Assembly (NCBI RefSeq): GCF_964355755.1
Contig: NC_092674.1
Span: 18,366,501-18,430,500, forward strand
Reading direction: 5' to 3'
Length of the DNA stretch: 64,000 nt
Origin: Antedon mediterranea
Lineage: Eukaryota > Echinodermata > Crinoidea > Comatulida > Antedonidae
Shown here one piece after another: positions 31,550 through 61,780 of the stretch (its first letter is position 1; each line of letters begins with the position of its first letter). The notes beneath the pieces are model-generated. The model ran no database searches. It had not been told where the DNA came from and saw nothing but the letters and a program-made list of their open reading frames with translations. Both the position numbers and the translations under genes were made by a program.

Positions 31550-32600
31550 AATTTTCCTATTTTATTGCATTATTATTTACAAGTGCATTATGTACAATTT
31601 GAACAAAGATACACAAATGTAGTAGGCATTCAATAAGGGAATATTCCTCTTAAATATAGTTATCTATAATATAGAAATTATCGGACAAATTCATTGCTCT
31701 AAATGTGTGTTACGATGTTACGATGGCATCATATCAAATGGTGGTTTTGTAGTTGAGCCTCACAGAATATTCACAATTTTGTTTCAAAATAAAATAAATG
31801 GACATTCTTTATGGTATGTGTGCTTTTTCTCTAAAATAAAAGATTTGAATAATAAAGGCCTTATATCGATAATAAAAACGTTTTTTGGCACTTATAATAA
31901 ATATTTCTCAGAAAAAAAGCACATGGCATGTGGAACTATATTATCTTGACGTAGGAAGACAGACAAATCCCAGGTCATGAGAGGTTCAACCACAAAAACA
32001 AGGTTGAATAGGGTAAGGTCACCGGACCGGACCGTTCGAAGATTTTTGAGTTTACAAACAATCTATATCTATAGTGCGTATGGCCGTACACGCTAGATTT
32101 ACATGTTTTGTTGGATGTTTACTGAAATCAAAAATATTTGATCATTTTGATGGAAATGATATGTAAATAAACACTCAAAAGAATTATGTTTACAGTTCAA
32201 TTATGGTCAGAATAATAATTGTTTGATCTTCTTTGCCTAATAACTTTTTTTTCCCCGCACCCTTGTGTTCCGACGGACAGTCAGAGCTGGGGGATTTTTG
32301 CTTGGGATAGGGGTAGTAGGCTATCAAATTGACCAGAATTGTAGTAGGAAATTATTAGAAGTATTTTAATTATCTCTGGGAAGGGGTTAGGAGTTTGGGG
32401 TGGGGTCGTAGGCCTATCAAAACGATGAAATTGTACCAGGAATGTTTTAAACTATATTTGAAAACTGCCACTGAGGGGTTATGGTTGGGAGTAATGGCTT
32501 AACATAATGTGTACTTGAAACGTCTTTCCAGTGGCGTTTGGGGGAAATGAAGTACTGTACAACATAATTGGAATTGTACTGGCAAAATATACAGTACTAA
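31550..32600. other. Intergenic DNA
   Basis: No gene supported. An 80-codon open frame at 31707-31949 starts at TTG and has no recognisable motif. Confidence 0.4.
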
Positions 32601-32608
32601 ATTTGAAC

Positions 32609-33792
32609 AGGGATGTCACCACGCTGGTCGGCCCCGACCAGCACTCAACATTTCCGACCAGGATTTACAGGCTGCCGACCACCACTATTATTTATTAATC
32701 ATTACGATATTTATATTAGGCCTAGGCCTAACTAAAATTCGTACTAAAACATTTTACCTAGCACATCGTTAATAACAGACAAGCTAGCCTCATATAGATA
32801 AGACAAAAGACTACAGCAAATGTTTCCGTGGTTACGTACGTTACTTTATTTGTAACATAATACCAGGCCTACCCTGCCCTGGTATTCATTGTTACAGCTT
32901 GTGAGTCATGGCGAACAACGTGCTACACAGCACAGTGTACAAGTTTAAAGTTCACATAGCGACCATTCAAGCGTTTTATTTTGCACAGATTAAAAATACA
33001 AACAAGTACGCAGTAATTAAAAATGTACAACTACATAGACCCAAACAAAATCATTTTTAATTGCTGAATGTTTTGTCACCATGCTTTAATTATATTATGT
33101 TACTAGTTTTACATTTTTGTACTCTACAAACTATTAAAAAAAATAAAAAAACATGCGCATGGTTCAGTGAGACCGGGCAAGTTCGTTCGTTTATGATCGC
33201 CGAGCATGGTACAATAATTACACGTCCCTGGGATAACTTCAGGTTGCTGAACTTCAGTTAACCCATAAACACGTGTCTCTGTTCTTGCCGGCCATGCACT
33301 ACATGCTTGCCGCACAGTTGTGAAACAAAAAATCCGGAATTCGCGAATACGCTAAAAAACTCTCGCGCAAAAGAACACGAACATTATATTGAGCAACAAG
33401 TAGAAAGGTCTAGGCTAATAATTTATCTACATTATTTGATTAGGGATTAGGCCTAAATAAAGAAGCGCCCGTTTTTGTGGAATTCAGGTTTTGGGGCATC
33501 TATCTAAGCCTTGGCTAGGCCTCTAGTGGTCGTAGTGTCTACAAGGCTAGGCCTAAGCCTGACGCGATCTATTGCTATTCATTTCGTGAGCGTTTTTTTG
33601 TTTTCGCGAATAATAACGGCGACTCCCCGGTGGTACAAGGTTAGGCCTAGACCTGACGCAATTTGTTGTTATTTATTTTCATAATTCTTTATGTTTCACT
33701 GAAATAACGACAAACCCTCGGGGGATACCCCGGGGTCCCCCCCCCCCCGGGAAATTTGCCGACCGGCACTCCAAAAAGCTGGTGACATCCCT
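32609..33792. mobile_element. Non-autonomous hAT-like element (1.18 kb)
   Basis: Ends are AGGGATGTCACCA and its exact inverse TGGTGACATCCCT. They are flanked by ATTTGAAC (32601-32608) and GTTTGAAC (33793-33800), an 8-bp target duplication with one mismatch. Next to the ends are GTCGGCCCCGACCAG and GCCGACCGGCA. No transposase ORF; one C-rich run near 33739. Confidence 0.85.
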
Positions 33793-33879
33793 GTTTGAAC
33801 TGTCCTGGGGATGAGATAAGGTTTGTTAATGACGGCTGTCATTGTCATGATTAACGCTTAGATAGGTTTCACATTTTTG

Positions 33880-35550
33880 AATATCAAACAGTAGATCTGA
33901 TTCGTTGTAGTAAATCTGACTTCGAAAATAAAATAGCAATTGAGATCAAATCTAATGAAAAGTCTTTTTGGAAGTATCTCAGTTCTCAGATAAATATAAA
34001 GTCTGGTATACCCAACTTAACTGATAGTAATGGAAGGCATGTGTCTGATGACAAGGATAAGGCTGATTTGCTAAACACGTTTTTTAGTAGTGTATTTGTC
34101 GATGAAAATTTTTCAAATGTACCGGCTGTTGATGACATTTCAGAGGATTTTTTATCTCAAGTTGACTTTCCTTGTGACGAAATCTTAAATATTTTATCAA
34201 CGTTGAATATTACTAAAACAGCTGGACCTGATGGTATTCACCCACGCATCTTAGTCGAGCTAAAGGATATCATTTGCTATCCCTTCCATATTATTTTTAC
34301 GAAATTGTTTCAAGAAGGAGCCGTCCCTAATAGTTGGAAACGGGCCATAGCGGTACCGATTTTTTAAAAAGGAGTGAAGTCTGACCCAAGCAACTATAGA
34401 CCGGTGAGTTTAACTTCGGTAGTTGGTAAAATTATGGTGAGAATTATCAGGAAGGAATTATTGGACTTTCTTGAACATCACTCACTTATTTGTTATGAGC
34501 AATTTGGTTTCCGGCAAGGTCGTTCCTGTGCTTTACAATTACTTGATGTACTTGAAAACTGGTTTTCTTATTTTGATAATCAGGATTGTTTTGATTGTAT
34601 CTACCTTGACTACAAGAAGGCTTTCGATAGTCTGCCTCATCATAGACTCCTTCTGAAAATGAGTGCATTGAGTATTAGAGGTCAACTTCTAAACTGGTTT
34701 CAAGAATTTCTTAACGATAGACAACAACGGGTTAGTGTCAATGGATGTGTTTCAGATTGGGCTGATGTTCGTAGTGGTATCCCGCAAGGAAGCGTTGTTG
34801 GACCTGTTCTTTTCATTATGTTTATAAATGATTTACCTTCTGTTATTTCTTCCTCTGTACGCATGTTTGCAGATGATACTAAATTGTATAGAGTAGTTAA
34901 CACTGTGAATGATGCTCAAGTTTTACAAGAAGATTTAGAGAGAGCATGTGACTGGTCTGACAAATGGCAATTACCTTTTAACGAGGGTAAGTGCAAAGTA
35001 ATGCACTTTGGGAAGAAAAACAACAAGCATCTGTATGCCATGCGTGGTTTCTTATTGAATGAAGTTGATCATGAAAAAGACCTCGGTGTTACTATTGACT
35101 CTAAACTTGTTTTTAATGTACATGTGGCAGATGTAGCAATGAGAGCAAATCGGAAGTTGGGCATGGTATATCGAGCTTTCAAGTTTTTAAATATGGATGG
35201 GTTTCTTCGTTTATATACTGTAAAGCTATTATTCGTCCGACCCTGGAATACTGCAACGTTGTTTTTAACTCGCTACATTGCAAGGAGGAAGACCTATTGG
35301 AAAAAGTCCACGAACGTGCCACCAAGCTTATTTTTTCCATTCGTCATTTACCTTATTCAGAAAGGCTGAAAATTCTCAACCTACCTACTCTCGCATATAG
35401 AAGGCAAAGAGCTCATTTGATACAGATTTTTAAAATTTTACATGGAGTGGATAGTATTTCTGCTGATTCTTTTTTTGAGCGTGATGAAGATGTTAGAACA
35501 CGTGGTCATTCTTTTAAATTAAAATTTAAGTTCTCACGCACAAATTTTGA
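33880..35550 (+). pseudogene. CR1-like LINE, damaged and 3'-truncated
   Basis: One continuous reading reconstructs most of a reverse transcriptase: FWKYLSSQINIKSG, LNITKTAGPDGIHPRIL, SNYRPVSLTSVVGK, IYLDYKKAFDSLPH, SGIPQGSVVGP and FADD (168-residue position of the second ORF). A single substitution turns a Lys codon into TAA at 34365-34367. A frameshift near 35220 moves the C-terminal part (RPTLEYCNVVFNSL) into another frame. It has no 3' UTR or tail because it runs straight into the next LINE near 35550. Confidence 0.85.
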
Positions 35551-37633
35551 ATATCGTCGATCAAATCCAATCAACAAGTACTAATATCAAGACATGCCTC
35601 AAAAAATGAAAATCAACTCCCATCAACTTAATGACCCAACATCCATAGCGAATGCGTTTAACACATACTTTATAAATATAGGTGACCAAATGACAGGTGA
35701 TGATAACCGTAATAGTAACACCGAATATAAAATACAACATGACATTTTGAATTCAATGTTTTTTAGAGCTGTATCCGAGTCCGATATCATTAAATACATT
35801 AATGACTTAAATGTAAATAAGTCAAGTGGTTGTGATGACATTGGTACCATTTATATAAAAAATAACTCAGATATACTGGCTAAACCGTTATCTCATATAA
35901 TCAATGTATCCCTTCAATCGGGTGTATTTCCTTGTCAACTAAAAATTGCTAAAACAATTCCTGTGTATAAAAAAGGAGCAAGGGAGAACATAGAAAATTA
36001 TAGACCGATATCGATATTACCATGTATATCTAAGGTATTTGAAAGGGTCGTATATGACCAAACAATCGCTTTTTTGTGTAAATATGATATGTTACATGAA
36101 TCTCAATATGGATTCAGGGCAGGTCATTCAACTAACCACGCCCTCCTACAAGTCCTTGATAAAATAACAACAGCCGTTGACAACAAGCAATTTATGATTG
36201 GCGTATTTTTGGATTTATCCAAGGCGTTCGATTCGATAGATCATGAATTATTGCTCACAAAATTGCCCCATTATGGAATAAGAGGCGTGGTTCTTGATTG
36301 GTACCGAAGCTACCTTAGAGAAAGACAACAATTCGTACAAATTGGGAAGTGTCAGTCTGTAACCAAAATAATAAAACAAGGCGTTCCACAAGGGTCAATC
36401 CTTGGACCCCTGCTGTTTTTGATTTTCATAAATGACATGTTTTCTGTAAGTAATGTCGTTGATTTAATAATGTTTGCAGATGATACGAATATGTTTTTAC
36501 AACACAATGATATCGTCACTGCCTTTACAATAATGACAAATGAACTAAATAAAATTGAGAAATGGTGTAAAACTAATAGATTAACTATTAATACAACCAA
36601 GACTACGTATATGTTATTTAGTGGAAAGAATACCAACATTGACACATCCCAATTTGTACTTTCAATAAATAGAGTTTCAATAGATAGAGTACCATATACT
36701 AAATTTCTCGGTGTCGTCATTGATGAGAAACTGAACTTTAGACACCATACAAATGCAGTTTCTTGTAAAGCATCCTCAATAATTGGTGCCATGTGTCATA
36801 TAAAAAAATTAGTATCTACTGAAGTGTTACTTACCATATACAAGACACTTATATTACCAGTGTTGACATATGGTATTATTGTATGGGGTGCGGGGAACAA
36901 AGACAATTTGGATCGCCTTCTATTGCTTCAGAAAAAAGCTCTTAGGATCATTTGTAAGGTAGACTTTCATCATCCCTCTTCTCAGCTCTTTGTGAAAACG
37001 GGCACACTTAATATATTTGATTTGTATAAAAACAGTGTTTTAAATTTTATGTTTAAATACCAAAAAGGACAACTTCCAAAATGTTTTAATTCTTTATTCA
37101 GTTTATTTGATAATTATCATACATATAACACTCGAAATAAAGACAATTATTGTATAAAATTAAAATCAACTAATATGGGTCAGCAAAGTATAGCATATAG
37201 AGGACCTAAGCTATGGAATCAACTTATAAGAAATATAAGAGAGAGTGAAAATATATCAATATTTAAAAAACTATTACTAAATAAATGCATTAATAGTTAT
37301 AAAGAAACAATATATCTATGCGAAAACAACATTTGTAAAATATGTCTAACTTTAACTTAATTAATTACATTCTCGTATATATTCTGAGACTGATGTATAT
37401 ATATATGTTATATTATAGTACGTTGTATTTTCCTTCATTTATTTACTACATGAAAACATTTTTTGTAATATATTTGTAAATTTATATTTTAAGTTAGGGT
37501 GCCACAGATTAAAAGCTTTGCTTGCTTGTGGTTATCCTGTTTTTCACACTTTATTGTACTTAATCTTTTATTTATATTTTTAAGAATGTTGTGTGAAAAA
37601 TAAAAGAATCAATCAATCAATCAATCAATCAAT
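35551..37633 (+). mobile_element. LINE with intact reverse-transcriptase ORF, 5'-truncated
   Basis: Contains the longest uninterrupted ORF in the window and a 3' end of TCAA repeats at 37610-37633. Its 5' end abuts the damaged CR1-like copy in the same orientation. The endonuclease domain is missing. Confidence 0.9.
35594..37360 (+). CDS. Non-LTR reverse transcriptase, 588 aa
   Basis: Reverse-transcriptase blocks appear in order: TIPVYKKGARENIENYRPIS (121-140), QYGFRAGHST (171-180), GVFLDLSKAFDSIDHELL with the first catalytic Asp (203-220), QGVPQGSILGPLLF (262-275) and FADD with the paired catalytic Asp (294-297). The C-terminal thumb-like part (RLLLLQKKALRII) follows. The ORF has no stop or shift. 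The ATG at 35594 follows an in-frame TAA at 35582-35584, so the natural start and the endonuclease have been lost by 5' truncation. It is therefore probably not able to move alone. Confidence 0.9.
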   Translation: MPQKMKINSHQLNDPTSIANAFNTYFINIGDQMTGDDNRNSNTEYKIQHDILNSMFFRAVSESDIIKYINDLNVNKSSGCDDIGTIYIKNNSDILAKPLSHIINVSLQSGVFPCQLKIAKTIPVYKKGARENIENYRPISILPCISKVFERVVYDQTIAFLCKYDMLHESQYGFRAGHSTNHALLQVLDKITTAVDNKQFMIGVFLDLSKAFDSIDHELLLTKLPHYGIRGVVLDWYRSYLRERQQFVQIGKCQSVTKIIKQGVPQGSILGPLLFLIFINDMFSVSNVVDLIMFADDTNMFLQHNDIVTAFTIMTNELNKIEKWCKTNRLTINTTKTTYMLFSGKNTNIDTSQFVLSINRVSIDRVPYTKFLGVVIDEKLNFRHHTNAVSCKASSIIGAMCHIKKLVSTEVLLTIYKTLILPVLTYGIIVWGAGNKDNLDRLLLLQKKALRIICKVDFHHPSSQLFVKTGTLNIFDLYKNSVLNFMFKYQKGQLPKCFNSLFSLFDNYHTYNTRNKDNYCIKLKSTNMGQQSIAYRGPKLWNQLIRNIRESENISIFKKLLLNKCINSYKETIYLCENNICKICLTLT

Positions 37634-38814: not shown

Positions 38815-38822
38815 ATGGAAGC
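38815..38822. repeat. 8-bp ATGGAAGC flank of element X1
   Basis: The same 8-mer recurs at 54751-54758 and 55560-55567, exactly between neighbouring X elements. Confidence 0.8.
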
Positions 38823-39320
38823 CAGAGAGCCATATATATAAAGAGTTACGACATTGGATTATAGTCACGTGATATGCAGATCAAAATGTGTCAAACTTGT
38901 CTCTATTAGTGCATGTAAAGTATAGGAGCAACAAAATACTTTCAACTTTTTCTTATATTTAAAAAAATGTAATTGCACATTTTACGGTAAAATATCGACG
39001 TGCACAGCGTACAGAAGTACTTGCGCCAAAGAATATTGCGCGCGCGTGCGCTAATACATTATAACGTTCTATTGATTGATTTTGGAACGAAACATCCCAT
39101 AACTACGTCCTATTAATAAAAGTTATGTAATATTTTCAATTCATAATGCATGCTTTGATGACTAAATAAAATAATAATGTGTTGAGGATATATTTTTTAA
39201 TATACTGAAAAGGGTATGAACATTATTAAAATAATAAAGGCAAATTATTACAAATGAAATGATGAACGAGTCTCTGAATGTTAATAACGTTGGCGGCGCA
39301 GTTTGTGTAAAAAACACACA

Positions 39321-39329
39321 GAAAGCCAT
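39321..39329. repeat. Target-site duplication of fold-back element, left
   Basis: GAAAGCCAT, identical to 54408-54416. The undisturbed site is present once in X3 as its inverse at 55904-55912. Confidence 0.9.
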
Positions 39330-39486
39330 GCTTGTGTCAAGCTAGCCAACAATAAGCCAGCCAACAATAAGCCAGCCCACTTTTATTTTTTCCAGCCAAC
39401 AATAACTATGAAACGCCGTTTGTGCATTCTTTACATTTTCATTGTTACTTATGGCTTTTATGGTATTAGGAATTAAATATTTGTGA
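39330..39486 (+). repeat. Fold-back element, left terminal inverted repeat
   Basis: Unique terminal sequence matched on the inverse strand by about 54251-54407 with almost no difference. The tip contains the small hairpin GCTTG-TGT-CAAGC. Confidence 0.9.
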
Positions 39487-42400
39487 GCAAAACGGCATAT
39501 TGTTCCTGGGATTCACTTGGTGGGATTATACTAGGGTACCCCCTTAGTCGTCCAGTATAAGTTAGAGTGGGACCACTGGTCCCGTTTACTCAGCCCTCAT
39601 CTTTAAAATTTGAGTGTAACTCAATTATGATTTTTAAAATATAGTTAAATTTGAAACTGTATTTGTGAGAAAATGGCGGATTGTTCCTGGGAGTCACTTG
39701 GTGGGATTATACTAGGGTACCCCCTTAGTCGTCCAGTATAAGTTAGAGTGCGACCACTGGTCCCGTTTACTCAGCCCTCATCTTTAAAATTTGAGTGTAA
39801 CTCAATTACAATTTTTAAAATATAGTTAAATTTGAAACTGTATTGGTGAGAAAATGGCGGATTGTTCCTGAGAGTCACTTGGTGGGATTATACTAGGGTG
39901 CCTCCTAAGTCGTACAGGATAAGTTAGAGTGGGACCACTGGTACCGTTTAATCAGCCCTCATCTTTTAAATTTGAGTGTAACTCATTTACGATTTAAAAA
40001 ATATAGTGAAATTTGATACTGTATTTGTGAAAAAATGGCGGATTGTTCCTGGGAGTCACTTGGTGGGATTATACTAGGGTACCTCCTTAGTTGTCCAGAA
40101 TAAGTTAGAGTGGGACCACTGGTCCCGTTTACTCAGCCCTCATCTTTTAAATTTGAGTGTAACTCATTTACGATTTTAAAAATATAGTGAAATTTGATAC
40201 TGTATTTGTGAGAAAACGGCGGATTGTTCCTGGGAGTCACATGGTGGGATTATACTAGGGTACCCCCTTAGTCGTCCAGTATAAGTTAGAGTGCGACCAC
40301 TGGTCCCGTTTACTCAGCCCTCATCTTTTAAATTTGAGTGTAACTCAATTACGATAACATTTTTAAAATATAGTGAAAATTGATACTGTATTTGTGAGAA
40401 AATGGCGGATTGTTCCTGGGAGTCACTTGGTGGGATTATACTAGGGTACCTCCTTAGTTGTCCAGTATAAGTTAGAGTGGGACCACTGGTCCCGTTTACT
40501 CAGCCCTCATCTTTTAAATTTGAGTGTAACTCATTTACGATTTTTAAAATATAGTAAAATTTGAAACTGTATTTGTGAGAAAATGGCGGATTGTTCCTGG
40601 GAGTCACTTGGTGGGATTATACTAGGGTACCTCTTTAGTTGTCCAGTATAAGTTATAGTGGGACCACTGGTCCCGTTTACTAAGCCCTCATCTTTAAAAT
40701 TTGAGTGTAACTCATTTACGATTTTTAAAAATATAGTGAAATTTGATACTGTATTTGTGAGAAAATGGCGGATTGTTCCTGGGAGTCACTTTGTGGGATT
40801 ATACTAGGGTACCTTCTTAGTTGTCCAGTATAAGTTAGAGTGGGACCACTGGTCCCGTTTACTCAGCCCTCATCTTTAAAATTTGAGTGTAACTCATTTA
40901 CGATTTTTAAAATATAGTGAAATTTGATACTGTATTTGTGAGAAAACGGCGGATTGTTCCTTAGAGTCACTTGGTGGGATTATACTAGGGTACCCCCTTA
41001 GTCGTCCAGTATAAGTTAGAGTGGGACCACTGGTCCCGTTTACTCAGCCCTCATCTTTTAAATTTGAGTGTAACTCATTTTCGATTTTTAAAATATAGTA
41101 AAATTTGATACTGTATTTGTGAGAAAACGGCGGATTGTTCCTGAGAGTCAGTTGGTGGGATTATACTAGGGTGCCTCCTTAGTCGTCCAGTATAAGTTAG
41201 AGTGGGACCACTGGTCCCGTTTACTCAGCCCTCATCTTTTAAATTTGAGTGTAACTCATTTACGATTTTAAAAATATAGAGAAATTAGATACTGTATTTG
41301 TGAGAAAACGGCGGATTTTTCCTGGGAGTCGCATGGTGGGATTATACTAAGGTACGTCCTTAGTCATCCAGCATAAGTTAGAGTGCGACCACTCGTTCCG
41401 TTTACTCAGCCCTCATCTTTTAAATTTGAGTGTAACTCAATTACGATAAAAAAATTTAAAATATAGTGAAAATTGATACTGTATTTGTGAGAAAATGGCG
41501 GATTGTTCCTGGAAGTCACTTGGTGGGATTATACTAGGGTACCTCCTTAGTCGTCCAGTATTAGTTAGAGTGGGACCACTGGTCCGGTTTACTCAGCCCT
41601 CATCTTTAAAATTTGAGTGTAACTCATTTACGATTTTTAAAATATAGTGAAATTTGATACTGTATTTGTGAGAAAATGGCGGATTGTTCCTTGGAGTCAC
41701 TTGGTGGGATTATACTAGGGTACCCCCTTAGTCGTCCAGTATAAGTTAGAGTGGGACCACGTGTCCCGTTTACTCAGCCCTCATCTTTAAAATTTGAGTG
41801 TAACTCATTTACGATTTTTAAAATATAGTGAAATTTGAAACTGTATTTGTGAGAAAACGGCGGATTGTTCCTGAGAGTCACTTGGTGGGATTATACTAGG
41901 GTACACCGTACCCTTAGTCGTCCAGTATAAGTTATAGTGGGACCACTGGTCCCGTTTACTAAGACCTCATCTTTAAAATTTGAGTGTAACTCATTTACGA
42001 TTTTTAAAAATATAGTGAAATTTGATACTGTATTTGTGAGAAAATGGCGGATTGTTCCTGGGAGTCACTTTGTGGGATTATACTAGGGTACCTTCTTAGT
42101 TGTCCAGTATAAATTAGAGTGGGACCACTGGTCCCGTTTACTCAGCCCTCATCTTTAAAATTTGAGTGTAACTCATTTACGATTTTTAAAATATAGTGAA
42201 ATTTGATACTGTATTTGTGAGAAAACGGCGGATTGTTCCTTAGAGTCACTTGATGGGATTATACTAGGGTACCCCCTTAGTCGTCCAGTATAAGTTAGAG
42301 TGGGACCACTGGTCCCGTTTACTCAGCCCTCATCTTTTAAATTTGAGTGTAACTCATTTACGATTTTTAAAATATAGTAAAATTTGATACTGTATTTGAG

Positions 42401-45400
42401 AGAAAACTGCGGATTGTTCCTGAGAGTCACTTGGTGGGATTATACTAGGGTGCCTCCTTAGTCGTCCAGTATAAGTTAGAGTGGGACCACTGGTCCCGTT
42501 TACTCAGCCCTCATCTTTTAAATTTGAGTGTAACTCATTTACGATTTTAAAAATATAGAGAAATTAGATACTGTATTTGTGAGAAAACGGTGGATTTTTC
42601 CTGGGAGTCACATGGTGGGATTATACTAAGGTACGTCCTTAGTCGTCCAGTATAAGTTAGAGTGCGACCACTGGTTCCGTTTACTCAGCCCTCATCTTTT
42701 AAATTTGAGTGTAACTCAATTACGATAAAAAAATTTAAAATATAGTGAAAATTGATACTGTATTTGTGAGAAAATGGCGGATTGTTCCTGGGAGTCACTT
42801 GGTGGGATTATACTAGGGTACCTCCTTAGTCGTCCAGTATTAGTTAGAGTGGGACCACTGGTCCGGTTTACTCAGCCCTCATCTTTAAAATTTGAGTGTA
42901 ACTCATTTACGATTTTTAAAATATAGTGAAATTTGATACTGTATTTGTGAGAAAATGGCGGATTGTTCCTTGGAGTCACTTGGTGGGATTATACTAGGGT
43001 ACCCCCTTAGTCGTCCAGTATAAGTTAGAGTGGGACCACTTGTCCCGTTTACTCAGCCCTCATCTTTAAAATTTGAGTGTAACTCATTTACGATTTTTAA
43101 AATATAGTGAAATTTGAAACTGTATTTGTGAGAAAACGGCGGATTGTTCCTGAGAGTCACTTGGTGGGATTATACTAGGGTACACCGTACCGTTAGTCGT
43201 CCAGTATAAGTTATAGTGGGACCACTGGTTCCGTTTACTAAGCCCTCATCTTTAAAATTTGAGTGTAACTCATTTACGATTTTTAAAAATATAGTGAAAT
43301 TTGATACTGTATTTGTGAGAAAACGGCGGATTGTTCCTTAGAGTCACTTGGTGGGATTATACTAGGGTACCCCCTTAGTCGTCCAGTATAAGTTAGAGTG
43401 GGACCACTGGTCCCGTTTACTCAGCCCTCATCTTTTAAATTTGAGTGTAACTCATTTACGATTTTTAAAATATAGTAAAATTTGATACTGTATTTGTGAG
43501 AAAACGGCGGATTGTTCCTGAGAGTCACTTGGTGGGATTATACTAGGGTGCCTCCTTAGTCGTCCAGTATAAGTTAGAGTGGGACCACTGGTCCCGTTTA
43601 CTCAGCCCTCATCTTTTAAATTTGAGTGTAACTCATTTACGATTTTAAAAATATAGAGAAATTAGATACTGTATTTGTGAGAAAACGGCGGATTTTTCCT
43701 GGGAGTCACATGGTGGGATTATACTAAGGTACATCCTTAGTCGTCCAGTATAAGTTAGAGTGCAACCACTGGTTCCGTTTACTCAGCCCTCATCTTTTAA
43801 ATTTGAGTGTAACTCAATTACGATAAAAAAATTTAAAATATAGTGAAAATTGATACTGTATTTGTGAGAAAATGGCGGATTGTTCCTGGGAGTCACTTGG
43901 TGGGATTATACTAGGGTACCTCCTTAGTTGTCCAGTAGAAGTTAGAGTGGGACCACTGGTCCCGTTTACTCAGCCCTCATCTTTAACGTTTGAGTGTAAC
44001 TCAATTACGATTAATATTTTAAAATATAGTGAAATTTGATACTGTATTTGTGAGAAAATGGCGGATTGTTCCCGGGAGTCACTTGGTGGGATTATACTAG
44101 GGTACCTCCTTAGTTGTCCAGTTTAAGTTAGAGTGGGACCACTGGTCCCGTTTACTCAGCCCTTATCTTTAAAATTTTAGTGTAACTCAATTACGATTAA
44201 TATTTTAAAATATAGTGAAATTTGATACTGTATTTGTGAGAAAATGGCGGATTGTTCCTGGCAGTCATTTGGTGGGATTATACTAGGGTACCTCCTTAGT
44301 CGTCCAGTATTAGTTAGAGTGGGACCACTGGTCCGGTTTACTCAGCCCTCATCTTTAAAATTTGAGTGTAACTCATTTACGATTTTTAAAATATAGTGAA
44401 ATTTGATACTGTATTTGTGAGAAAATGGCGGATTGTTCCTTGGAGTCACTTGGTGGGATTATACTAGGGTACCCCCTTAGTCGTCCAGTATAAGTTAGAG
44501 TGGGACCACTTGTCCCGTTTACTCAGCCCTCATCTTTAAAATTTGAGTGTAACTCATTTACGATTTTTAAAATATAGTGAAATTTGAAACTGTATTTGTG
44601 AGAAAACGGCGGATTGTTCCTGAGAGTCACTTGGTGGGATTATACTAGGGTACACCGTACCCTTAGTCGTCCAGTATAAGTTATAGTGGGACCACTGGTC
44701 CCGTTTACTAAGCCCTCATCTTTAAAATTTGAGTGTAACTCATTTACGATTTTTAAAAATATAGTGAAATTTGATACTGTATTTGTGAGAAAACGGCGGA
44801 TTGTTCCTTAGAGTCACTTGGTGGGATTATACTAGGGTACCCCCTTAGTCGTCCAGTATAAGTTAGAGTGGGACCACTGGTCCCGTTTACTCAGCCCTCA
44901 TCTTTTAAATTTGAGTGTAACTCATTTACGATTTTTAAAATATAGTAAAATTTGATACTGTATTTGTGAGAAAACGGCGAATTGTTCCTGAGAGTCACTT
45001 GGTGGGATTATACTAGGGTGCCTCCTTAGTCGTCCAGTATAAGTTAGAGTGGGACCACTGGTCCCGTTTACTCAGCCCTCATCTTTTAAATTTGAGTGTA
45101 ACTCATTTACGATTTTAAAAATATAGAGAAATTAGATACTGTATTTGTGAGAAAACGGCGGATTTTTCCTGGGAGTCACATGGTGGGATTATACTAAGGT
45201 ACGTCCTTAGTCGTCCAGTATAAGTTAGAGTGCAACCACTGGTCCCGTTTACTCAGCCCTCATCTTTTAAATTTGAGTGTAACTCAATTACGATAAAAAA
45301 ATTTAAAATATAGTGAAAATTGATACTGTATTTGTGAGAAAATGGCGGATTGTTCCTGGGAGTCACTTGGTGGGATTATACTAGGGTACCTCCTTAGTTG

Positions 45401-45811
45401 TCCAGTAGAAGTTAGAGTGGGACCACTGGTCCCGTTTACTCAGCCCTCATCTTTAACGTTTGAGTGTAACTCAATTACGATTAATATTTTAAAATATAGT
45501 GAAATTTGATACTGTATTTGTGAGAAAATGGCGGATTGTTCCCGGGAGTCACTTGGTGGGATTATACTAGGGTACCTCCTTAGTTGTCCAGTTTAAGTTA
45601 GAGTGGGACCACTGGTCCCGTTTACTCAGCCCTTATCTTTAAAATTTGAGTGTAACTCAATTACGATTAATATTTTAAAATATAGTGAAATTTGATACTG
45701 TATTTGTGAGAAAATGGCGGATTGTTCCTGGCAGTCACTTGGTGGGATTATACTAGGGTACCCCCTTAGTCGTCCAGTATAAGTTAGAGTGGGACCACTG
45801 GTCCGGTTTAC

Positions 45812-47226
45812 CAGGGGTCCCAAGTCTACCGCTACTCGCGGTAGTCTACCGCTTTTAGTACCCATCTACCGCGCTACCGCTATCTCGACGTTTTCTACCG
45901 CATTTTGATTTTTTTACCGCATTTTCAAATTTCCCCATATTTTTGGCCAAATTGATTTACGGTTACACCCAGGCTCAGCCCAGGTCAACAATAGTCAATA
46001 ACCAGACAAAGGTGAGGCACGATGTTGAAACAATGTCTATTCATGCAGTCTCCGTGGTCTATTATTGTATTTTTATTTGTATGCACTGCCTTTGTTAAAC
46101 CGTAACAATAATAATAAACATGCACGGTACTACACGCCGGACGTAGAAAAAAAGAAGCGTGCAACCAACCGTGAATCAATCACGTGGTAACCGGAATACG
46201 CGATTATTAATTTTGGGAGGATCAAAGTTTTAACTAAATAAACGCTTTTATTACACAGTGGTTGAGACACGTTTTTATAGTTATACATTTTTAAACACCC
46301 TCATAATTAATGGACTCTACCAATGTTGATCCGCTGCAATCAAAGAACAACAGATCGCACATCGCACGAGGTTGTTGAGGCGGTGTTTTATTTGGTTTTA
46401 CTGTACGATCCGATAATACGAACATGTTAAATGGATTCGCCAAGCAAGTACTGTAGGCCTACGTTTAATAAAAACATGGAGAAAAATTTACCTAAGATTG
46501 TCGTAAGCTCTTTTGTTCAAACTTGTTATTTATAGCAATAATCCACCCGTTCCGGCATGCACGCTAGGCCTCCAGCCTATTATGCCTACTCCTCGATCGA
46601 TCGATCGATCGATGTCGCTGGTGGGGAATTTCCCAGCGATAAGAAATCGGCGAAATAGCTCATAAACGGCCTACATTTTAATGTTATATCTTCAATGCCA
46701 GTGTAATTACGTATGGATAAAACAATATAAAACTCAATGTTTTTCATCTGAAATAATATGTTAACTCGCGTAATGAAGCATAAGACGGATTCGGAATAGG
46801 CCTAGTTTTTTGGTTTAAAAATGGTAGCTAGCTAGGGCCTAGAAGAAGAAGCCCTAGGCTAAAAAATGAGTAAATTCTATTGGGCAATACTATCATGTGT
46901 AAATATTGTACATTATGTAATTAAGTTAAATTATGTTATATACTGAATTTTAGTTAAAATACAGTACTGTATATATTTTTTTAATTTGTATCCATAAAAG
47001 AAATAAGAATGTAAAAATACTGATGGATAAACCTATGTAAAAATTAAGCCAACTTATAAATATTGTATATATATATGTAACATATTTAGTTAATTAAGAG
47101 ATGTAAAACGACACGCTTGTTGATTTTCGATTCCCCGCGCGTTGACTTTCGACGCCCCGACGAATTGAATGTGATTCGACACGACAAAATCTCCTGCGAA
47201 TGGACTTTCCCAAGTTGGGACCTCTG
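45812..47226. mobile_element. Non-autonomous hAT-like element in the left arm (1,415 bp)
   Basis: Ends are CAGGGGTCCCAAGT and the inverse of CAGAGGTCCCAACT. They are flanked by GGTTTAC on both sides (45805-45811 and 47227-47233), and outside them the monomer sequence resumes correctly. The interior has CTACCGC-rich DNA near the left end and a TCGA microsatellite near 46594; no transposase ORF. Confidence 0.85.
46593..46613. repeat. (TCGA)n microsatellite
   Basis: About five uninterrupted TCGA units within the hAT-like element. Confidence 0.85.
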
Positions 47227-47660
47227 GGTTTACTCAGCCCTCATCTTTAAAATTTGAGTGTAACTCATTTACGATTTTAAAAATATAGTGAAATTTGATA
47301 CTGTATTTGTGAGAAAATGGCGGATTGTTCCTGGGAGTCACTTGGTGGGATTATACTTGGGTACCCACTTAGTCGTCCAGTATAAGTTAGAGTGGGACCA
47401 CTGGTCCCGTTTACTCAGCCCTCATTTTTAAAATTTGAGTGTAACTCATTTACGATTTTTAAAATATAGTGAAATTTGAAACTGTATTTGTGAAAAAACG
47501 GCGGATTGTTCCTGAGAGTCACTTGGTGGGATTATACTAGGGTACCTCCTTGGTCGTCCAGTAAAAGTTAGAGTGGTACCACTGGTTCCGTTTACTCAGC
47601 CCTCATCTTTTAAATTTGAGTGTAACTCATTTACGATTTTTAAAATATAGTGAAATTTGT

Positions 47661-50600
47661 ACCAGTGGTCCCACTCTAAACTATATTTTAAAAATCGTAA
47701 ATGAGTTACACTCAAATTTTAAAGATGAGGGCTGAGTAAACGGGACCAGTGGTCCGACTCTAATTTATACTGGACGACTAAGGGGGTACCCTAGTATAAT
47801 CCCACCAAGTGACTTTCAGGAACAATCCGCCGTTTTCTCACAAATACAGTATCAAATTTCACTATATTTTAAAAATCGTAAATGAGTTACACTCAAATTT
47901 TAAAGATGAGGGCTGAGTAAACGGGACCAGTGGTCCCACTCTAACTTATACTGGACAACTAAGGAGGTACCCTACTATAATCCCACCAAGTGACTCTCAG
48001 GAACAATCCGCCGTTTTCTCACAAATACAGTTTCAAATTTTACTATATTGTAAAAATCGTAAATGAGTTACACTCAAATTTTAAAGATGAGGGCTGAGTA
48101 AACGGGACCAGTGGTCCCACTCTAACTTCTACTGGACAACTAAGGAGGTACCCTAGTATAATTCCACCAAGTGACTCCAAGGAACAATCCGCCATTTTCT
48201 CACAAATACAGTATCAATTTTCACTATATTTTAAATTTTTTTACCGTAATTGAGTTACACTCAAATTTAAAAGATGAGGGCTGAGTAAACGGAACCAGTG
48301 GTCGCACTCTAACTTATACTGGACGACTAAGGACGTACCTTAGTATAATGCCACCATTTGACTCCCAGGAACAATCCGCCGTTTTCTCACAAATACAGTA
48401 TCAAATTTCACTATATTTTTAAAATCGTAAATGAGTTACACTCAAATTTTAAAGATGAGGGCTGAGTAAACGGGACCAGTGGTCCCACTCTAACTTATAC
48501 TGGACGACTAAGGGGGTACCCTAGTATAATCCCACCAAGTGACTTTCAGGAACAATCCGCCGTTTTCTCACAAATACAGTATCAAATTTCACTATATTTT
48601 AAAAATCGTAAATGAGTTACACTCAAATTTTAAAGATGAGGGCTGAGTAAACGGGACCAGTGGTCCCACTCTAACTTATACTGGACAACTAAGGAGGTAC
48701 CCTACTATAATCCCACCATTTGACTCCCAGGAACAATCCGCCGTTTTCTCACAAATACAGTATCAAATTTCACTATATTTTTAAAATCGTAAATGAGTTA
48801 CACTCAAATTTTAAAGATGAGGGCTGAGTAAACGGGACCAGTGGTCCCACTCTAACTTAAACTGGACCACTAAGGAGGTACCCTAGTATAATCCCACCAA
48901 GTGACTCTCGGGAACAATCCGCCATTTTCTCACCAATACAGTATCAAATTTCACTATATTTTACAATATTAATCGTAATTGAGTTACACTCAAACGTTAA
49001 AGATGAGGGCTGAATAAACGGGACCAGTGGTCCCACTCTAACTTCTACTGGACAACTAAGGAGGTACCCTAGTATAATCCCACTAAGTGACTCCAAGGAA
49101 CAATCCGCCATTTTCTCACAAATACAGTATCAATTTTCACTATATTTTAAAATGTTTTACCGTAATTGAGTTACACTCAAATTTTAAAGATAAGGGCTGA
49201 GTAAACGGGACCAGTGGTCCCACTCTAACTTAAACTGGACAACTAAGGAGGTACCCTAGTATAATCCTACCAAGTGACTCTCGGGAACAATCCGCCATTT
49301 TCTCACAAATACAGTATCAAATTTCACTATATTTTAAAATATTATTCGTAATTGAGTTACACTCAAACGTTAAAGATGATGGCTGAGTAAACGGGACCAG
49401 TGGTCCCACTCTAACTTCTACTGGACGACTAAGGACGTACCTTAGTATAATGCCACCATGTGACTCCCAGGAACAATCCGCCGTTTTCTCACAAATACAG
49501 TATCAAATTTCACTATATTTTTAAAATCGTAAATGAGTTACACTCAAATTTTAAAGATGAGGGCTGAGTAAACGGGACCAGTGGTTCCACTCTAACTTAT
49601 ACTGGACGACTAAGGGGGTACCCTATTATAATCCCACCAAGTGACTTTCAGGAACAATCCGCCATTTTCTCACAAATACAGTATCAAATTTCACTATATT
49701 TTAAAAATCGTAAATGAGTTACACTCAAATTTTAAAGATGAGGGCTGAGTAAACGGGACCAGTGGTCCCACTCTAACTTATACTGGACAACTAAGGAGGT
49801 ACCCTACTATAATCCCACCATTTGACTCCCAGGAACAATCCGCCGTTTTCTCACAAATACAGTATCAAATTTCACTATATTTTTAAAATCGTAAATGAGT
49901 TACACTCAAATTTTAAAGATGAGGGCTGAGTAAACGGGACCAGTGGTCCCACTCTAACTTATACTGGACAACTAAGGAGGTACCCTAGTATAATCCCACC
50001 AAGTGACTCTCAGGAACAATCCGCCGTTTTCTCACAAATACAGTTTCAAATTTTACTATATTTTAAAAATCGTAAATGAGTTACACTCACATTTTAAAGA
50101 TGAGGGCTGAGAAACGGGACCAGTGGTCCCACTCTAACTTATACTGCACAACTAAGGGGGTACCCTAGTATAATCCCACCAAGTGGCTCCCAGGAACAAT
50201 CCGCCATTTTCTCACAAATACAGTATCAAATTTCACTATATTTTAAAATATTAATCGTAAATGAGTTACACTCAAATTTTAAAGATAAGGGCTGAGTAAA
50301 CGGGACCAGTGGTCCCACTCTAACTTAAACTGGACCACTAAGGAGGTACCCTAGTATAATCCCACCAAGTGACTCTCGGGAACAATCCGCCATTTTCTCA
50401 CAAATACAGTATCAATTTTCACTATATTTTAAATTTTTTTACCGTAATTGAGTTACACTCAAATTTAAAAGATGAGGGCTGAGTAAACGGAACCAGTGGT
50501 CGCACTCTAACTTATACTGGACGACTAAGGACGTACCTTAGTATAATGCCACCATTTGACTCCCAGGAACAATCCGCCGTTTTCTCACAAATACAGTATC

Positions 50601-53600
50601 AAATTTCACTATATTTTTAAAATCGTAAATGAGTTACACTCAAATTTTAAAGATGAGGGCTGAGTAAACGGGACCAGTGGTCCCATTCTAACTTATACTG
50701 GACAACTAAGGACGTACCCTAGTATAATCCCACCAAGTGACTCTGAGGAACAATCCGCCGTTTTCTCACAAATACAGTTTCAAATTTTACTATATTTTAA
50801 AAATCGTAAATGAGTTACACTCAAATTTTAAAGATGAGGGCTGAGTAAACGGGACCAGTGGTCCCACTCTAACTTATACTGCACAACTAAGGGGGTACCC
50901 TAGTATAATCCCACCAAGTGGCTCCCAGGAACAATCCGCCATTTTCTCACAAATACAGTATCAAATTTCACTATATTTTAAAATATTAATCGTAAATGAG
51001 TTACACTCAAATTTTAAAGATAAGGGCTGAGTAAACGGGACCAGTGGTCCCACTCTAACTTAAACTGGACAACTAAGGAGGTACCCTAGTATAATCCCAC
51101 CAAGTGACTCTCAGGAACAATCCGCCGTTTTCTCACAAATACAGTTTCAAATTTTACTATATTTTAAAAATCGTAAATGAGTTACACTCACATTTTAAAG
51201 ATGAGGGCTGAGAAACGGGACCAGTGGTCCCACTCTAACTTATACTGCACAACTAAGGGGGTACCCTAGTATAATCCCACCAAGTGGCTCCCAGGAACAA
51301 TCCGCCATTTTCTCACAAATACAGTATCAAATTTCACTATATTTTAAAATATTAATCGTAAATGAGTTACACTCAAATTTTAAAGATAAGGGCTGAGTAA
51401 ACGGGACCAGTGGTCCCACTCTAACTTAAACTGGACCACTAAGGAGGTACCCTAGTATAATCCCACCAAGTGACTCTCGGGAACAATCCGCCATTTTCTC
51501 ACAAATACAGTATCAATTTTCACTATATTTTAAATTTTTTTACCGTAATTGAGTTACACTCAAATTTAAAAGATGAGGGCTGAGTAAACGGAACCAGTGG
51601 TCGCACTCTAACTTATACTGGACGACTAAGGACGTACCTTAGTATAATGCCACCATTTGACTCCCAGGAACAATCCGCCGTTTTCTCACAAATACAGTAT
51701 CAAATTTCACTATATTTTTAAAATCGTAAATGAGTTACACTCAAATTTTAAAGATGAGGGCTGAGTAAACGGGACCAGTGGTCCCATTCTAACTTATACT
51801 GGACAACTAAGGACGTACCCTAGTATAATCCCACCAAGTGACTCTGAGGAACAATCCGCCGTTTTCTCACAAATACAGTTTCAAATTTTACTATATTTTA
51901 AAAATCGTAAATGAGTTACACTCAAATTTTAAAGATGAGGGCTGAGTAAACGGGACCAGTGGTCCCACTCTAACTTATACTGCACAACTAAGGGGGTACC
52001 CTAGTATAATCCCACCAAGTGGCTCCCAGGAACAATCCGCCATTTTCTCACAAATACAGTATCAAATTTCACTATATTTTAAAATATTAATCGTAAATGA
52101 GTTACACTCAAATTTTAAAGATAAGGGCTGAGTAAACGGGACCAGTGGTCCCACTCTAACTTAAACTGGACAACTAAGGAGGTACCCTAGTATAATCCCA
52201 CCAAGTGACTCTCGGGAACAATCCGCCATTTTCTCACAAATACAGTATCAAATTTCACTATATTTTAAAATATTAATCGTAATTGAGTTACACTCAAACG
52301 TTAAAGATGAGGGCTGAGTAAACGGGACCAGTGGTCCCACTCTAACTTCTACTGGACAACTAAGGAGGTACCTTAGTATAATCCCACCAAGTGAATCCAA
52401 GGAACAATCCGCCATTTTCTCACAAATACAGTATCAAATTTCACTATATTTTACAATATTAATCGTAATTGAGTTACACTCAAATTTAAAAGATGAGGGC
52501 TGAGTAAACGGGACCAGTGGTCGCACTCTAACTTATACTGGACGACTAAGGACGTACCTTAGTATAATGCCACCATGTGACTCCCAGGAACAATCCGCCG
52601 TTTTCTCACAAATACAGTATCAAATTTCACTATATTTTTAAAATCGTAAATGAGTTACACTCAAATTTTAAAGATGAGAGCTGAGTAAACGGGACCAGTG
52701 GTCCCACTCTAACTTATACTGGACAACTAAGGAGGTACCCTAGTATAATCCCACCAAGTGACTCTCAGGAACAATCCGCCGTTTTCTCACAAATACAGTT
52801 TCAAATTTTACTATATTTTAAAAATCGTAAATGAGTTACACTCAAATTTTAAAGATGAGGGCTGAGTAAACGGGACCAGTGGTCCCACTCTAACTTATAC
52901 TGCACAACTAAGGGGGTACCTTAGTATAATCCCACCAAGTGGCTCCCAGGAACAATCCGCCATTTTCTCACAAATACAGTATCAAATTTCACTATATTTT
53001 AAAATATTAATCGTAAATGAGTTACACTCAAATTTTAAAGATAAGGGCTGAGTAAACGGGACCAGTGGTCCCACTCTAACTTAAACTGGACAACTAAGGA
53101 GGTACCCTAGTATAATCCCACCAAGTGACTCTCGGGAACAATCCGCCATTTTCTCACAAATACAGTATCAAATTTCACTATATTTTAAAATATTAATCGT
53201 AATTGAGTTACCCTCAAACGTTAAAGATGAGGGCTGAGTAAACGGGACCAGTGGTCCCACTCTAACTTCTACTGGACAACTAAGGAGGTACCCTAGTATA
53301 ATCCCACCAAGTGACTCCAAGGAACAATCCGCCATTTTCTCACAAATACAGTATCAATTTTCACTATATTTTGAAAATTTTTACCGTAATTGAGTTACAC
53401 TCAAATTTAAAAGATGAGGGCTGAGTAAACGGAACCAGTGGTCGCACTCTAACTTATACTGGACGACTAAGGGCGTACCTTAGTATAATGCCACCATGTG
53501 ACTCCCAGGAACAATCCGCCGTTTTCTCACAAATACAGTATCTAATTTCACTATATTTTAAAAATCGTAAATGAGTTACACTCAAATGTTAAAGATGAGG

Positions 53601-54250
53601 GCTGAGTAAACGGGACCAGTGGTCCCACTCTAACTTATACTGGACAACTAAGGAGGTACCCTAGTATAATCCCACCAAGTGACTCCCAGGAACAATCCGC
53701 CATTTTCTCACAAATACAGTATCAAATTTCACTATATTTTTAAATCGTAAATGAGTTACACTCAAATTTAAAAGATGAGGGCTGAGTAAATGGTACCAGT
53801 GGTCCCACTCTAACTTATAGTGTACGACTAAGGAGGTATCCTAGTATAATCCCACCAAGTGACTCCCAGGAACAATCCGCCATTTTCTCACCAATACAGT
53901 TTCAAATTTAACTATATTTTAAAAATTGTAATTGAGTTACACTCAAATTTTAAAGATGAGGGCTGAGTAAACGGGACCAGTGGTCGCACTCTAACTTATA
54001 CTGGACGACTAAGGGGGTACCCTAGTATAATCCCACCAAGTGACTCCCAGGAACAATCCGCCATTTTCTCACAAATACAGTTTCAAATTTAACTATATTT
54101 TAAAAATTGTAATTGAGTTACACTCAAATTTTAAAGATGAGGGCTGAGTAAACGGGACCATTGGTCCCACTCTAACTTATACTGGACGACTAAGGGGGTA
54201 CCCTAGTATAATCCCACCTAGTGAATCCCAGGAACAATCCGCCGTTTTTC
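47661..54250 (-). repeat. Right arm: ~36 tandem copies of the ~181-bp monomer, inverted
   Basis: The same monomer in opposite orientation (AAAGATGAGGGCTGAG, GGGACCAGTGGTCCCACTCT, GGAACAATCCGCC). Blocks of about 1.1 kb are duplicated within the arm; for example GGGCTGAGAAACGGGACC occurs near 50105 and 51206 with matching neighbours. Confidence 0.95.
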
Positions 54251-54407
54251 TCACAAATATTTAATTCCTAATACCATAAAAGCCATAAGTAACAATGAAA
54301 ATGTAAAGAATGCACAAACGGCGTTTCATAGTTATTGTTGGCTGGAAAAAATAAAAGTGGGCTGGCTTATTGTTGGCTGGCTTATTGTTGGCTAGCTTGA
54401 CACAAGC
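54251..54407 (-). repeat. Fold-back element, right terminal inverted repeat
   Basis: Inverse of 39330-39486, including TTAATTCCTAATACCATAAA, the two AGCC-rich subrepeats and the tip. Confidence 0.9.
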
Positions 54408-54416
54408 GAAAGCCAT
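54408..54416. repeat. Target-site duplication of fold-back element, right
   Basis: GAAAGCCAT, followed by ATACTGCATAAAAATA, the continuation of element X. Confidence 0.9.
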
Positions 54417-54758
54417 ATACTGCATAAAAATAGGGGTGAATTTGTTTGTTTTTTGTATTGGTTCATTCTTTGATGTATCCTAACTTCCATGTAGGCCCTA
54501 GCATTTATTTGTTTGTTATTATAACAAATATATATATATTTTAACAAATCAATACCATTAATAAAATTATTTACTAAAATAAAAACAGAATCTAAGCGTT
54601 ATTTCATTGACAACAAAATCTAAAAATAATGCATGAACTAATAGGAAAACGCTATACAAAAGAGACGCGCGCGCCCTCAGCGTGCGAATTCTTTGACACA
54701 AAAATGGCTTCTAATTTTTAATGTCGTAACTCTTTATATATATGGCTCTGATGGAAGC

Positions 54759-55559
54759 CAGAGCCATATATATAAAGAGTTACGACATTGGATTATAGTC
54801 ACGTGATATGCAGATCAATTTGTGTCAAACTTGTCTCCGTTAATGCATGTAAAGTATAGGAGCAAGAAATTACTTTAAACTTTTTCTTATATAAAAAAAA
54901 ATGTAATTACACATTTTACGGTGGAATATCGACGTGCACAGCGTACAGAACCACTTGCGCCAAAGAATATTTCGCGCGCGTACGCTAGTACATTATAACG
55001 TTCGATTGATTGATTTTGGAACAAAATATCCCATAACTACGTCCCATTAATAACAATTATGTAATATTTTCAATTCATAATGCATGCTTTGATGACTAAA
55101 TAAAATAATAAAGTGTCGTGGATATATTTGTTAATATATTGAATAGGTATGAACAATATTAAAATAATAAAGGCAAATTATTACAAATGAAATGATGAAC
55201 GAGTCTCTGAAAGTTTGTGTCAAAAACACACGGAGAGCATATACTGATATAAAAAGAGGGGTGAATTTGTATTGGTTCATGCTTTGATGTATCCTGACTT
55301 GCATGTAGGCCCTAGTATTTATTCTTTTGTTATTATAGACACAATATATATATGTTACAAAATTAATACCATTAATCAAATTAATTACTAAAATAAAAAC
55401 GGAATATAAGCGTTATTTCATAGACAAAAAAATCTAAAAATAAAGCAAGAACTACAGGAAAACGCTATACAAATAAGACGCGCGCGCCCTCAGCGTGCGA
55501 ATTCTTTGACACAAACATGGCTTCTAATCTTCAATGTCGTAACTCTTTATATGGCTCTG
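54759..55559 (+). mobile_element. Element X copy 2 (801 bp)
   Basis: Same orientation as X1. It begins CAGAGCCATATATATAAAGA and ends with its inverse, GGCTCTG. Flanked on both sides by ATGGAAGC. It carries the undisturbed TTAA (54840-54843) that in X3 is the target of the hairpin element. It holds a GC-rich patch (ACGCGCGCGCCCTCAGCGTG). No ORF supported. Confidence 0.85.
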
Positions 55560-55567
55560 ATGGAAGC

Positions 55568-56592
55568 CAGAGCCATATATATATAAAGAGTTACGACATT
55601 GAAAATTAGAAGCCATTTTTGTGTCAAAGAATTCGCACGCTGAGGGCGCGCGCGTCTCTTTTGTATAGCGCTTTCCTATTAGTTCATGCATTATTTTTAG
55701 ATTTTGTTGTCAATGAAATAACGCTTAGATTCCGTTTTTATTTTAGTAAATAATTTTATTAATGGTATTGATTTGTTAAAATATATATATATTTGTTATA
55801 ATAACAAACAAAAAAATGCTAGGGCCTACATGGAAGTTAGGATACATCAAAGAATGAACCAATACAAAAAACAAACAAATTCACCCATATTTTTATGCAG
55901 TATATGGCTTTCTGTGTGTTTTTTACACAAACTGCGCCGCCAACGTTATTAACATTCAGAGACTCGTTCATCATTTCATTTGTAATAATTTGCCTTTATT
56001 ATTTTAATATTGTTCATACCCTTTTCAGTATATTAACAAATATATCCTCAACACATTATTATTTTATTTAGTCATCAAAGCATGCATTATGAATTGAAAA
56101 TATTACATAATTGTTATTAATAGGACGTAGTTATGGGATGTTTTGTTCCAAAATCAATCAATAGAACGTTATAATGTACTAGCGCACGCGCGCGCAATAT
56201 TCTTTGCCGCAAGTACTTATGTACGCTGTGCACATCGATATTTAACCGTAAAATGTGCAATTACATTTTTTTAAATATAAGAAAAAGTTTAAAGTATTTT
56301 CTTGCTCCTATACTTTTCATGCATTAAGGGTCTTTCACACCTGTTCCGGCACGGTTCCGGTCCGGCGAATCGAACATCAATGTTTCGTTTTCACGCGGCT
56401 ATGCGTCAATCGATATGTGCGTAGCCGCGTGAAAACGAAACATTGGCGTTCGATTGGATTTTCCGGCGCCGGACCGGAACCGTGCCGGAACAGGTGTGAA
56501 AGACCCTTTAACGGAGACAAGTTTGACACAAATTGATCTGCATATCACGTGACTATAATCCAATGTCGTAACTCTTTATATATATGGCTCTA
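55568..56592 (-). mobile_element. Element X copy 3, inverted
   Basis: Reverse orientation relative to X1 and X2. It keeps the uninterrupted fold-back target (55904-55912) and contains a 180-bp hairpin element at 56328-56507. Left flank is ATGGAAGC; the right end runs into X4 without an intact flank. Confidence 0.85.
56328..56507. mobile_element. 180-bp hairpin MITE with TTAA duplication
   Basis: The ends GGGTCTTTCACACCTGTTCC and the inverse are perfectly complementary and continue through GGCACGGTTCCGGTCCGGCG. A second inner pair reads CGCGGCTATGCG / CGCGTAGCCGCG-like. TTAA flanks both sides (56324-56327, 56508-56511). X2 shows the empty site. The TTAA duplication fits piggyBac- or Kolobok-type mobilisation. 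Confidence 0.9.
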
Positions 56593-57168
56593 TAGAGACA
56601 GTTACGGCATTGAATGGATTAGAAGCCGTGTTTGTGTCCAACTATTCTTATGTAGCGTATGGAGTTTAGTCTTTTGTTTTGAAAATGTATAACGTTCAAA
56701 AGGCTTTAATTATCGAATTTAATATCAAAACAATCAATTTGATTAAAGGTTTTTGTTAAAATAATAAAAAAATTATAAAGTTACTGCGAACATGATTTAA
56801 AACAACAAAAATAGCAATTTCGGAAGGGCTCTGGTTGTGCGCTCCATGCACGCTCTACGCGTGCGAGTTTAGTTTGTACAGCGATTCTCTATAGTAATGC
56901 ATTGTTTTTACATTTTGTTGTTTAAAATAATGTTCGCAGTAACTTTATGATTTCGTTATTATCTTAACAAAAACCTTTAAACAAATTGATTGTTTTGATA
57001 TTAAATTCGATATTTAAAGCCTTGTGAATGTTATACATTTTTTAAGCAAAATGACTCGACTCCATACGCTACATAGGCATAGTTGGACACAAACATGGCC
57101 CGTGCACACCACGTGACTTTCTAAAATCCGTGAACGCAAAGTCGTAACTCTCTCTATATATGGCTTTG
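56593..57168 (-). mobile_element. Element X copy 4, diverged and shorter
   Basis: Starts AGAGACAGTTACGGCATTG and ends GTCGTAACTCTCTCTATATA then TGGCTTTG, diverged versions of X ends in X3's orientation. Its inner region is itself palindromic: GTGTCCAACTATTCTTATGT near 56632 is answered near 57065-57090, and AAAACAATCAATTTGATTAA near 56726 by the inverse near 56975. Confidence 0.75.
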
Positions 57169-61686: not shown

Positions 61687-61780
61687 TTTATGGTACTGTT
61701 CAAACTCGATTGGATAGCGAAATATAGAGATATAATTTTGATGAATCAAATTGACAATGGCATTGAATCGTTTAACACAA

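Follow-up and report, generated by a model that had tools for sequence, protein, structure and literature searches.

A large foldback element with satellite arms and probably Mutator-like tips in the crinoid Antedon mediterranea

Introduction

When a satellite array is found inside a transposon, did it arrive with the transposon or grow there afterwards? The question is raised by a 15,078-bp unit at 39330-54407 of the Antedon mediterranea DNA analysed here, a stretch of 64,000 nucleotides referred to below as the window. The unit is bounded by inverse tips and filled by tandem monomers of ~181 bp, forward in the left arm and reverse in the right. A first-pass annotation had likened its layout to that of Drosophila Foldback elements, at a much larger size, and had proposed that the whole palindromic array moved or was inserted as one unit. 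The likeness in layout and the larger size are upheld by the present analysis, while the single move is questioned below. The reading favoured here, with a probability of about three in four, is that of a foldback transposon that is non-autonomous and carries tips of the Mutator-like (MULE) type.

Boundaries and insertion site

The left and right tips are inverses of each other without a single difference (158 of 158 bases identical), and both are flanked by the 9-bp word GAAAGCCAT. In the window, this word has two forward-strand occurrences, at 39321 and 54408, and a single reverse-strand one, at 55904. The last of these is an empty site, a single uninterrupted target in X3, an inverted relative of the interrupted sequence X1. 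The flanks were joined at a single copy of the target-site duplication (TSD) and aligned with the reverse-complemented sequence of 55800-56000, where one mismatch and no gaps fell within the 120 bp spanning the junction; a longer alignment, to 55450-56400 in reverse complement, runs ungapped for its first 718 bp. A second relative, X2 (alignment from 55212), is also without the big insert, and its target region is altered by substitutions and gaps. The exact terminal inverses, the perfect duplication and the empty target reported in the first-pass annotation all withstood these comparisons. At the level of sequence alignment, insertion of an element with 158-bp tips and a 9-bp TSD is demonstrated, and it took place within X1, an inverted-repeat element of ~0.84 kb, duplicating 9 bp of the target.

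Since its longest stop-to-stop frame spans only 84 codons, the element is considered non-autonomous. Pfam scans of eight of the window's 20 frames with a length of 110 aa or more revealed no transposase. The element was seen as one copy within the window. Exact matches were also sought in contig collections, where a 29-base stretch of the tip and a 22-base stretch of the monomer each gave 0 in a viral collection and a 27-base stretch of the tip gave 0 in a genome collection; because neither collection is animal, these zeros say little.

Table 1. Coordinates of the element, its parts and the surrounding inverted-repeat copies (window positions)
Feature	Position	Strand	Remarks
Left TSD copy	39321..39329	+	GAAAGCCAT, 9 bp
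Left tip	39330..39487	+	158 bp; palindrome, then 15-bp repeats
Left arm array	39478..47659	+	37 forward ~181-bp monomers, split by the insert at 45812-47226
Nested insert	45812..47226	.	~1.4 kb, non-satellite, in monomer L35; ends CAGGGGTCCCAA / CAGAGGTCCCAA, GGTTTAC both sides
Centre	47660..47679	.	displaced 20-bp monomer piece at the orientation switch; loop absent
Right arm array	47680..54259	-	36 reverse ~181-bp monomers
Right tip	54250..54407	-	158 bp; inverse of left tip
Right TSD copy	54408..54416	+	GAAAGCCAT, 9 bp
Empty site in X3	55904..55912	-	single uninterrupted target
X1, X2 (direct), X3 (inverted)	38815-39329, 54417-56591		inverted-repeat element copies; ends AGAGCC...GGCTCT
TTGTGTCAA	39332, 54397, 54820, 55215, 55619, 54693, 55506, 56523		one more in window at 11140

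The X copies measure 837 bp (X1), 799 bp (X2) and 1,023 bp (X3), X3 being about 186 bp longer than X1, and they are 97.6% (X1-X3), 92.3% (X1-X2) and 93.4% (X2-X3) identical. ATGGAAGCC precedes X1 and recurs between the X copies, resembling a 9-bp duplication. Near each end of both X2 and X3 there is also an inward-facing copy of TTGTGTCAA, the word at the core of the palindrome in the big element's tips. In shuffles of the X2 interior, any tip 9-mer faced inward at both ends in 1 of 5,000 cases and at the left end in 334 of 5,000, figures that come from a test chosen after the motif had been seen, on three X copies that are not independent and of which X1 is without the left motif. X may have been mobilised by the same transposase group as the big element.

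Beyond the X copies, a 475-bp stretch at 56625-57099 is 79% similar to its own reverse complement, and a ~760-bp direct tandem duplication, 97.4% identical, occupies 249-1752. Tandem repeats rich in ATCCCG-like words are found at 18423-18923 (119-bp period, 4.2 copies) and at 23479-23869 (mixed 20-91-bp periods). Three LINE-like reverse-transcriptase frames (RVT_1, Pfam) lie at 29886-37360; a LINE-like frame gave 7,960 matches among the 7,987 scored candidates, which were those sharing most words with it, and the best match among the 120 listed was from Antedon mediterranea (48% identical). The only Rfam match in the window, with none inside the big element, is tRNA-like (RF00005, 40.5 bits; 61619-62236, minus strand) and represents perhaps a tRNA-derived SINE. 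It lies beside an ApeC-domain exon (Pfam), to which one of 18 candidate proteins matched at E <= 0.001; this protein is 50% identical and comes from the crinoid Anneissia japonica.

Satellite arms and their growth

The 37 forward and 36 reverse monomers meet directly at 47659/47660, in agreement with the loopless foldback layout of the first-pass annotation. Its count of ~37 monomers per arm was close, but it had missed the non-satellite insert in the left arm. Period-181 arrays were placed by TRF at 39478-45811, 47228-47659 and 47680-54259, and an anchor search found the units spaced 176-192 bp apart with a single exception, a 1,604-bp jump in the left arm that the insert accounts for; no monomer anchors were found in the window beyond the element with up to 6 errors allowed. 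The arms measure 8.3 kb (left, insert included) and 6.7 kb (right). The insert is confined to the left arm and has short, inverted ends; it may be hAT-like, and the 8-bp duplication expected for hAT is imperfect here. Insertion with a TSD on both sides, seen against the empty site in X3, and long inverted repeats made mostly of direct tandem repeats between inverse tips are both features by which foldback elements are recognised.

The arms are similar, not identical, their best inverted alignment being 92.6% identical over 6,543 aligned columns. When the 73 monomers were aligned (numbered L or R from the tip inward, with an incomplete last monomer in each arm and L35 joined across the insert), mean identity was 0.939 for left-arm pairs and 0.933 both for right-arm pairs and for pairs drawn from the two arms. 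Register between the arms is limited to the tip and about five monomers, the outer ~1 kb: among 36 monomers, the mirror partners R01-R05 ranked 2, 1, 1, 2 and 1 for L01-L05, and for L06-L10 the ranks were 20, 8, 15, 4 and 18. Directly inward of the tips, 7 differences fall within about 145 bp, while L01/R01, L02/R02 and L03/R03 differ at 6/172, 0/172 and 8/171 positions, the gap columns in such pairs stemming largely from differing cut points per arm. The outer ~1 kb is thus a registered inverted repeat of patchy identity, as inter-arm conversion would leave. Because of this patchiness, the identical tips are unusable as an insertion clock, and dating by them was abandoned.

Further inward, left-arm block duplications have periods of 6 to 8 monomers, with 16/1278, 6/548, 7/1098 and 4/921 differences (0.43-1.25%), and right-arm blocks have periods of 5 and 6 monomers, with 5/543 differences and, between R13-17 and R19-23, 0/915. 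Tandem, homogenised and organised in higher-order repeats with 0-1.25% between blocks, the arrays have the properties of a satellite. Higher-order repeats specific to one arm show that each array has grown on its own. Nevertheless, some array must already have existed when the arms separated, since monomer diversity is largely common to both and two-monomer types recur across them out of register, with 5/362 and 5/363 differences. Judged from their sequences, the arms are of common ancestry with separate growth.

Two further origins were considered. One recent inverted duplication of the whole palindrome was rejected, being contradicted by the loss of register beyond about five monomers and by the best matches of L36, L37, R35 and R36, which are not their mirror partners. 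Derivation of the monomer from the tip is unsupported, as the best local score between them (20) was reached by 208 of 1,000 shuffles.

Tip structure and candidate transposase

The outermost 13 bp of the tip form an imperfect palindrome, GCTTG-TGT-CAAGC, inward of which TRF found 2.6 copies of a 15-bp repeat. A 12-bp core, AGCCAACAATAA, occurs three times per tip (at 39344, 39359 and 39394 on the left). MULEs are described as having TSDs of 8-10 bp and terminal inverted repeats (TIRs) of >100 bp, often with 9-15-bp subterminal tandem repeats (PMC5225508), ranges that include the 9-bp TSD, 158-bp tips and 15-bp repeats found here. For example, Muta1, an active MULE of Aedes aegypti, has a 145-bp TIR with an imperfect terminal palindrome, 12-bp subterminal tandem repeats separated by spacers of 3-4 bp, and a TSD of 8 or 9 bp; in the same mosquito, 10 of 12 long-TIR MULE families carry 9-15-bp subterminal repeats (PMC5225508). 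By this description, Muta1 and the present element share a tip plan of terminal imperfect palindrome, 12-bp repeat unit (here a core) and 9-bp TSD, whereas Muta1 is portrayed as a 3,198-bp autonomous element without satellite arms (PMC5225508). Similarly, the Tm1 Mutator/Foldback family of root-knot nematodes has composite TIRs with a variable number of 13-15-bp tandem repeats, TSDs of 8-10 bp (mostly 9 bp) and some non-autonomous members (PMC3169594). It thus resembles the element described here in its 13-15-bp TIR repeats, 9-bp TSD and non-autonomy, but the Tm1 elements described in that source are small (one of 1,080 bp) and without ~180-bp satellite arrays.

The Muta1-like tip plan and the parallels in Tm1 would point to a MULE-type transposase acting in trans. 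Such a transposase, encoded elsewhere, would bind the terminal palindrome and the 12-bp repeats at both ends and would mobilise the element by a cut-and-paste mechanism. As foldback layouts arise in other superfamilies too, the case that tip plan and TSD length make for a MULE is indirect.

Alternative explanations

If the tips belonged to a non-Mutator superfamily such as P/Galileo, the foldback layout would be a product of convergence. Foldback structure may indeed arise in different lineages (PMC4079207), and Galileo, of the P superfamily, has TIR-only copies with tandem repeats (PMC4168063). However, the Galileo TSD is given as 7-8 bp in Drosophila willistoni (PMC4168063), against 9 bp here, and a terminal palindrome followed by subterminal repeats with a 12-bp core fits MULEs as described (PMC5225508), which leaves a foreign superfamily an improbable source of the tips. 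Far less credible still is an assembly artefact, in the form of a folded-back read or a mis-assembled array. Identical blocks such as the 0/915 pair are where assemblers err in copy number, but at their best the arms align with only 92.6% identity, their higher-order repeats differ, the nested insert is in the left arm only, and the TSD and empty site sit outside the array. Assembly fold-back was judged unlikely on the divergence of the arms and their separate higher-order repeats.

A third possibility bears directly on the opening question, namely that the satellite palindrome was near its present size at insertion and that a MULE-type transposon carried about 13.7 kb of pre-formed, higher-order palindromic array, and no other cargo, as an intact unit. 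A single TSD pair encloses the whole array, monomer diversity is largely common to the arms, two-monomer types are shared out of register, and left-arm blocks have diverged by 0.43-1.25% while the tips and L02/R02 have not diverged at all; each of these would fit a pre-formed array. Nevertheless, the tips are no clean clock given the differences just inside them and in L01/R01 and L03/R03, the undiverged right-arm block is as young as anything datable, arm-specific higher-order repeats speak for separate growth, and no second long copy was seen within the window. Intact transport of the array is considered possible, albeit doubtful.

What moved, and what it would mean

The first-pass proposal that the whole palindromic array moved as one unit went beyond its evidence: the TSD proves insertion of these tips, not the length of the element at that time, and the arms keep register no further than the tip and about five monomers, with arm-specific higher-order repeats beyond. 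A sizeable array may nonetheless predate the insertion, because much of the monomer diversity is older and common to both arms. For the favoured foldback transposon with MULE tips, the inner arrays would have lengthened separately in each arm through unequal exchange or slippage, and patchy inter-arm conversion would keep parts of the outer kilobase alike. The youngest right-arm block (0/915) would be the best candidate for growth after insertion; its identity points to growth no older than anything else that can be dated here.

Comparing alleles or species at the 39321/54416 site could tell satellite-carrying foldbacks from satellites grown inside landed foldbacks. If the array does transpose intact, DNA transposition would be the route by which the satellite spreads, and every landing would found a new array that is homogenised from the start.

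Comparison with known foldback elements

The first-pass annotation saw in the element a way for satellite arrays to be spread by transposition; that the tandem repeats of foldback TIRs can seed such arrays was published in 2014 for Tetris of Drosophila virilis (PMC4079207). In two reviews, Tetris is cited as a foldback from which satellite arrays have arisen, and no case resembling the present element was found in the passages of them consulted (PMC9659126, PMC12628747). As described, Tetris has TIRs composed of an outer flanking domain and ~220-bp tandem repeats, no transposase and TSDs of 8-10 bp, and was placed in Mutator by its authors (PMC4079207). Arrays formed by its repeats reach 66 copies; the repeats have a 37-bp stretch in common with the flanking domain and, in complete copies, belong to TIRs of up to 1,735 bp around a middle domain (PMC4079207). 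By that description the plan is shared here, with an outer domain (the 158-bp tip) leading into ~200-bp tandem repeats (~181 bp). Unlike in Tetris, the arms reach 8.3 and 6.7 kb and meet without a loop, and the repeat unit has no supported stretch in common with the outer domain (208/1,000 shuffles). The Tetris case would extend from flies to, probably, echinoderms, the repeats here outnumbering those of the complete Tetris copies that were described.

Galileo copy 112 of Drosophila willistoni is another close parallel in structure. This TIR-only copy of 9,021 bp has TIRs of 4,246 and 4,680 bp with ~140-bp direct tandem repeats in unequal numbers per arm, other transposable elements inserted in it, and identical TSDs (PMC4168063), and, sizes and repeat period apart, it resembles the present element in these respects. 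It differs in belonging to the P superfamily, with a 7-8-bp TSD, and its repeats, at about 2 to 9 copies per region, cover only part of the TIR in the account given (PMC4168063).

Among echinoderms, the first-pass remark that no such element had been described from this group was overstated, as foldbacks have been reported from sea urchin (stated in PMC4079207). In the literature searched, which covered a minority of subscription journals, such an element was not encountered in echinoderms; nor was there a paper about the sea-urchin TU elements, a combination of foldback, Mutator and 9 bp, or one of echinoderm satellites with transposon and inverted repeats. Crinoids, transposable elements and satellites came together in one paper, on a brittle star genome. 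The TU elements are also echinoderm foldbacks with 15-bp tandem repeats in their outer arms, but with an 8-bp TSD. In summary, the element is a very large, extreme case of an already known foldback kind, and what is unusual is a matter of degree: both arms are array almost from tip to centre, with 37 and 36 units, higher-order repeats and an intact TSD.
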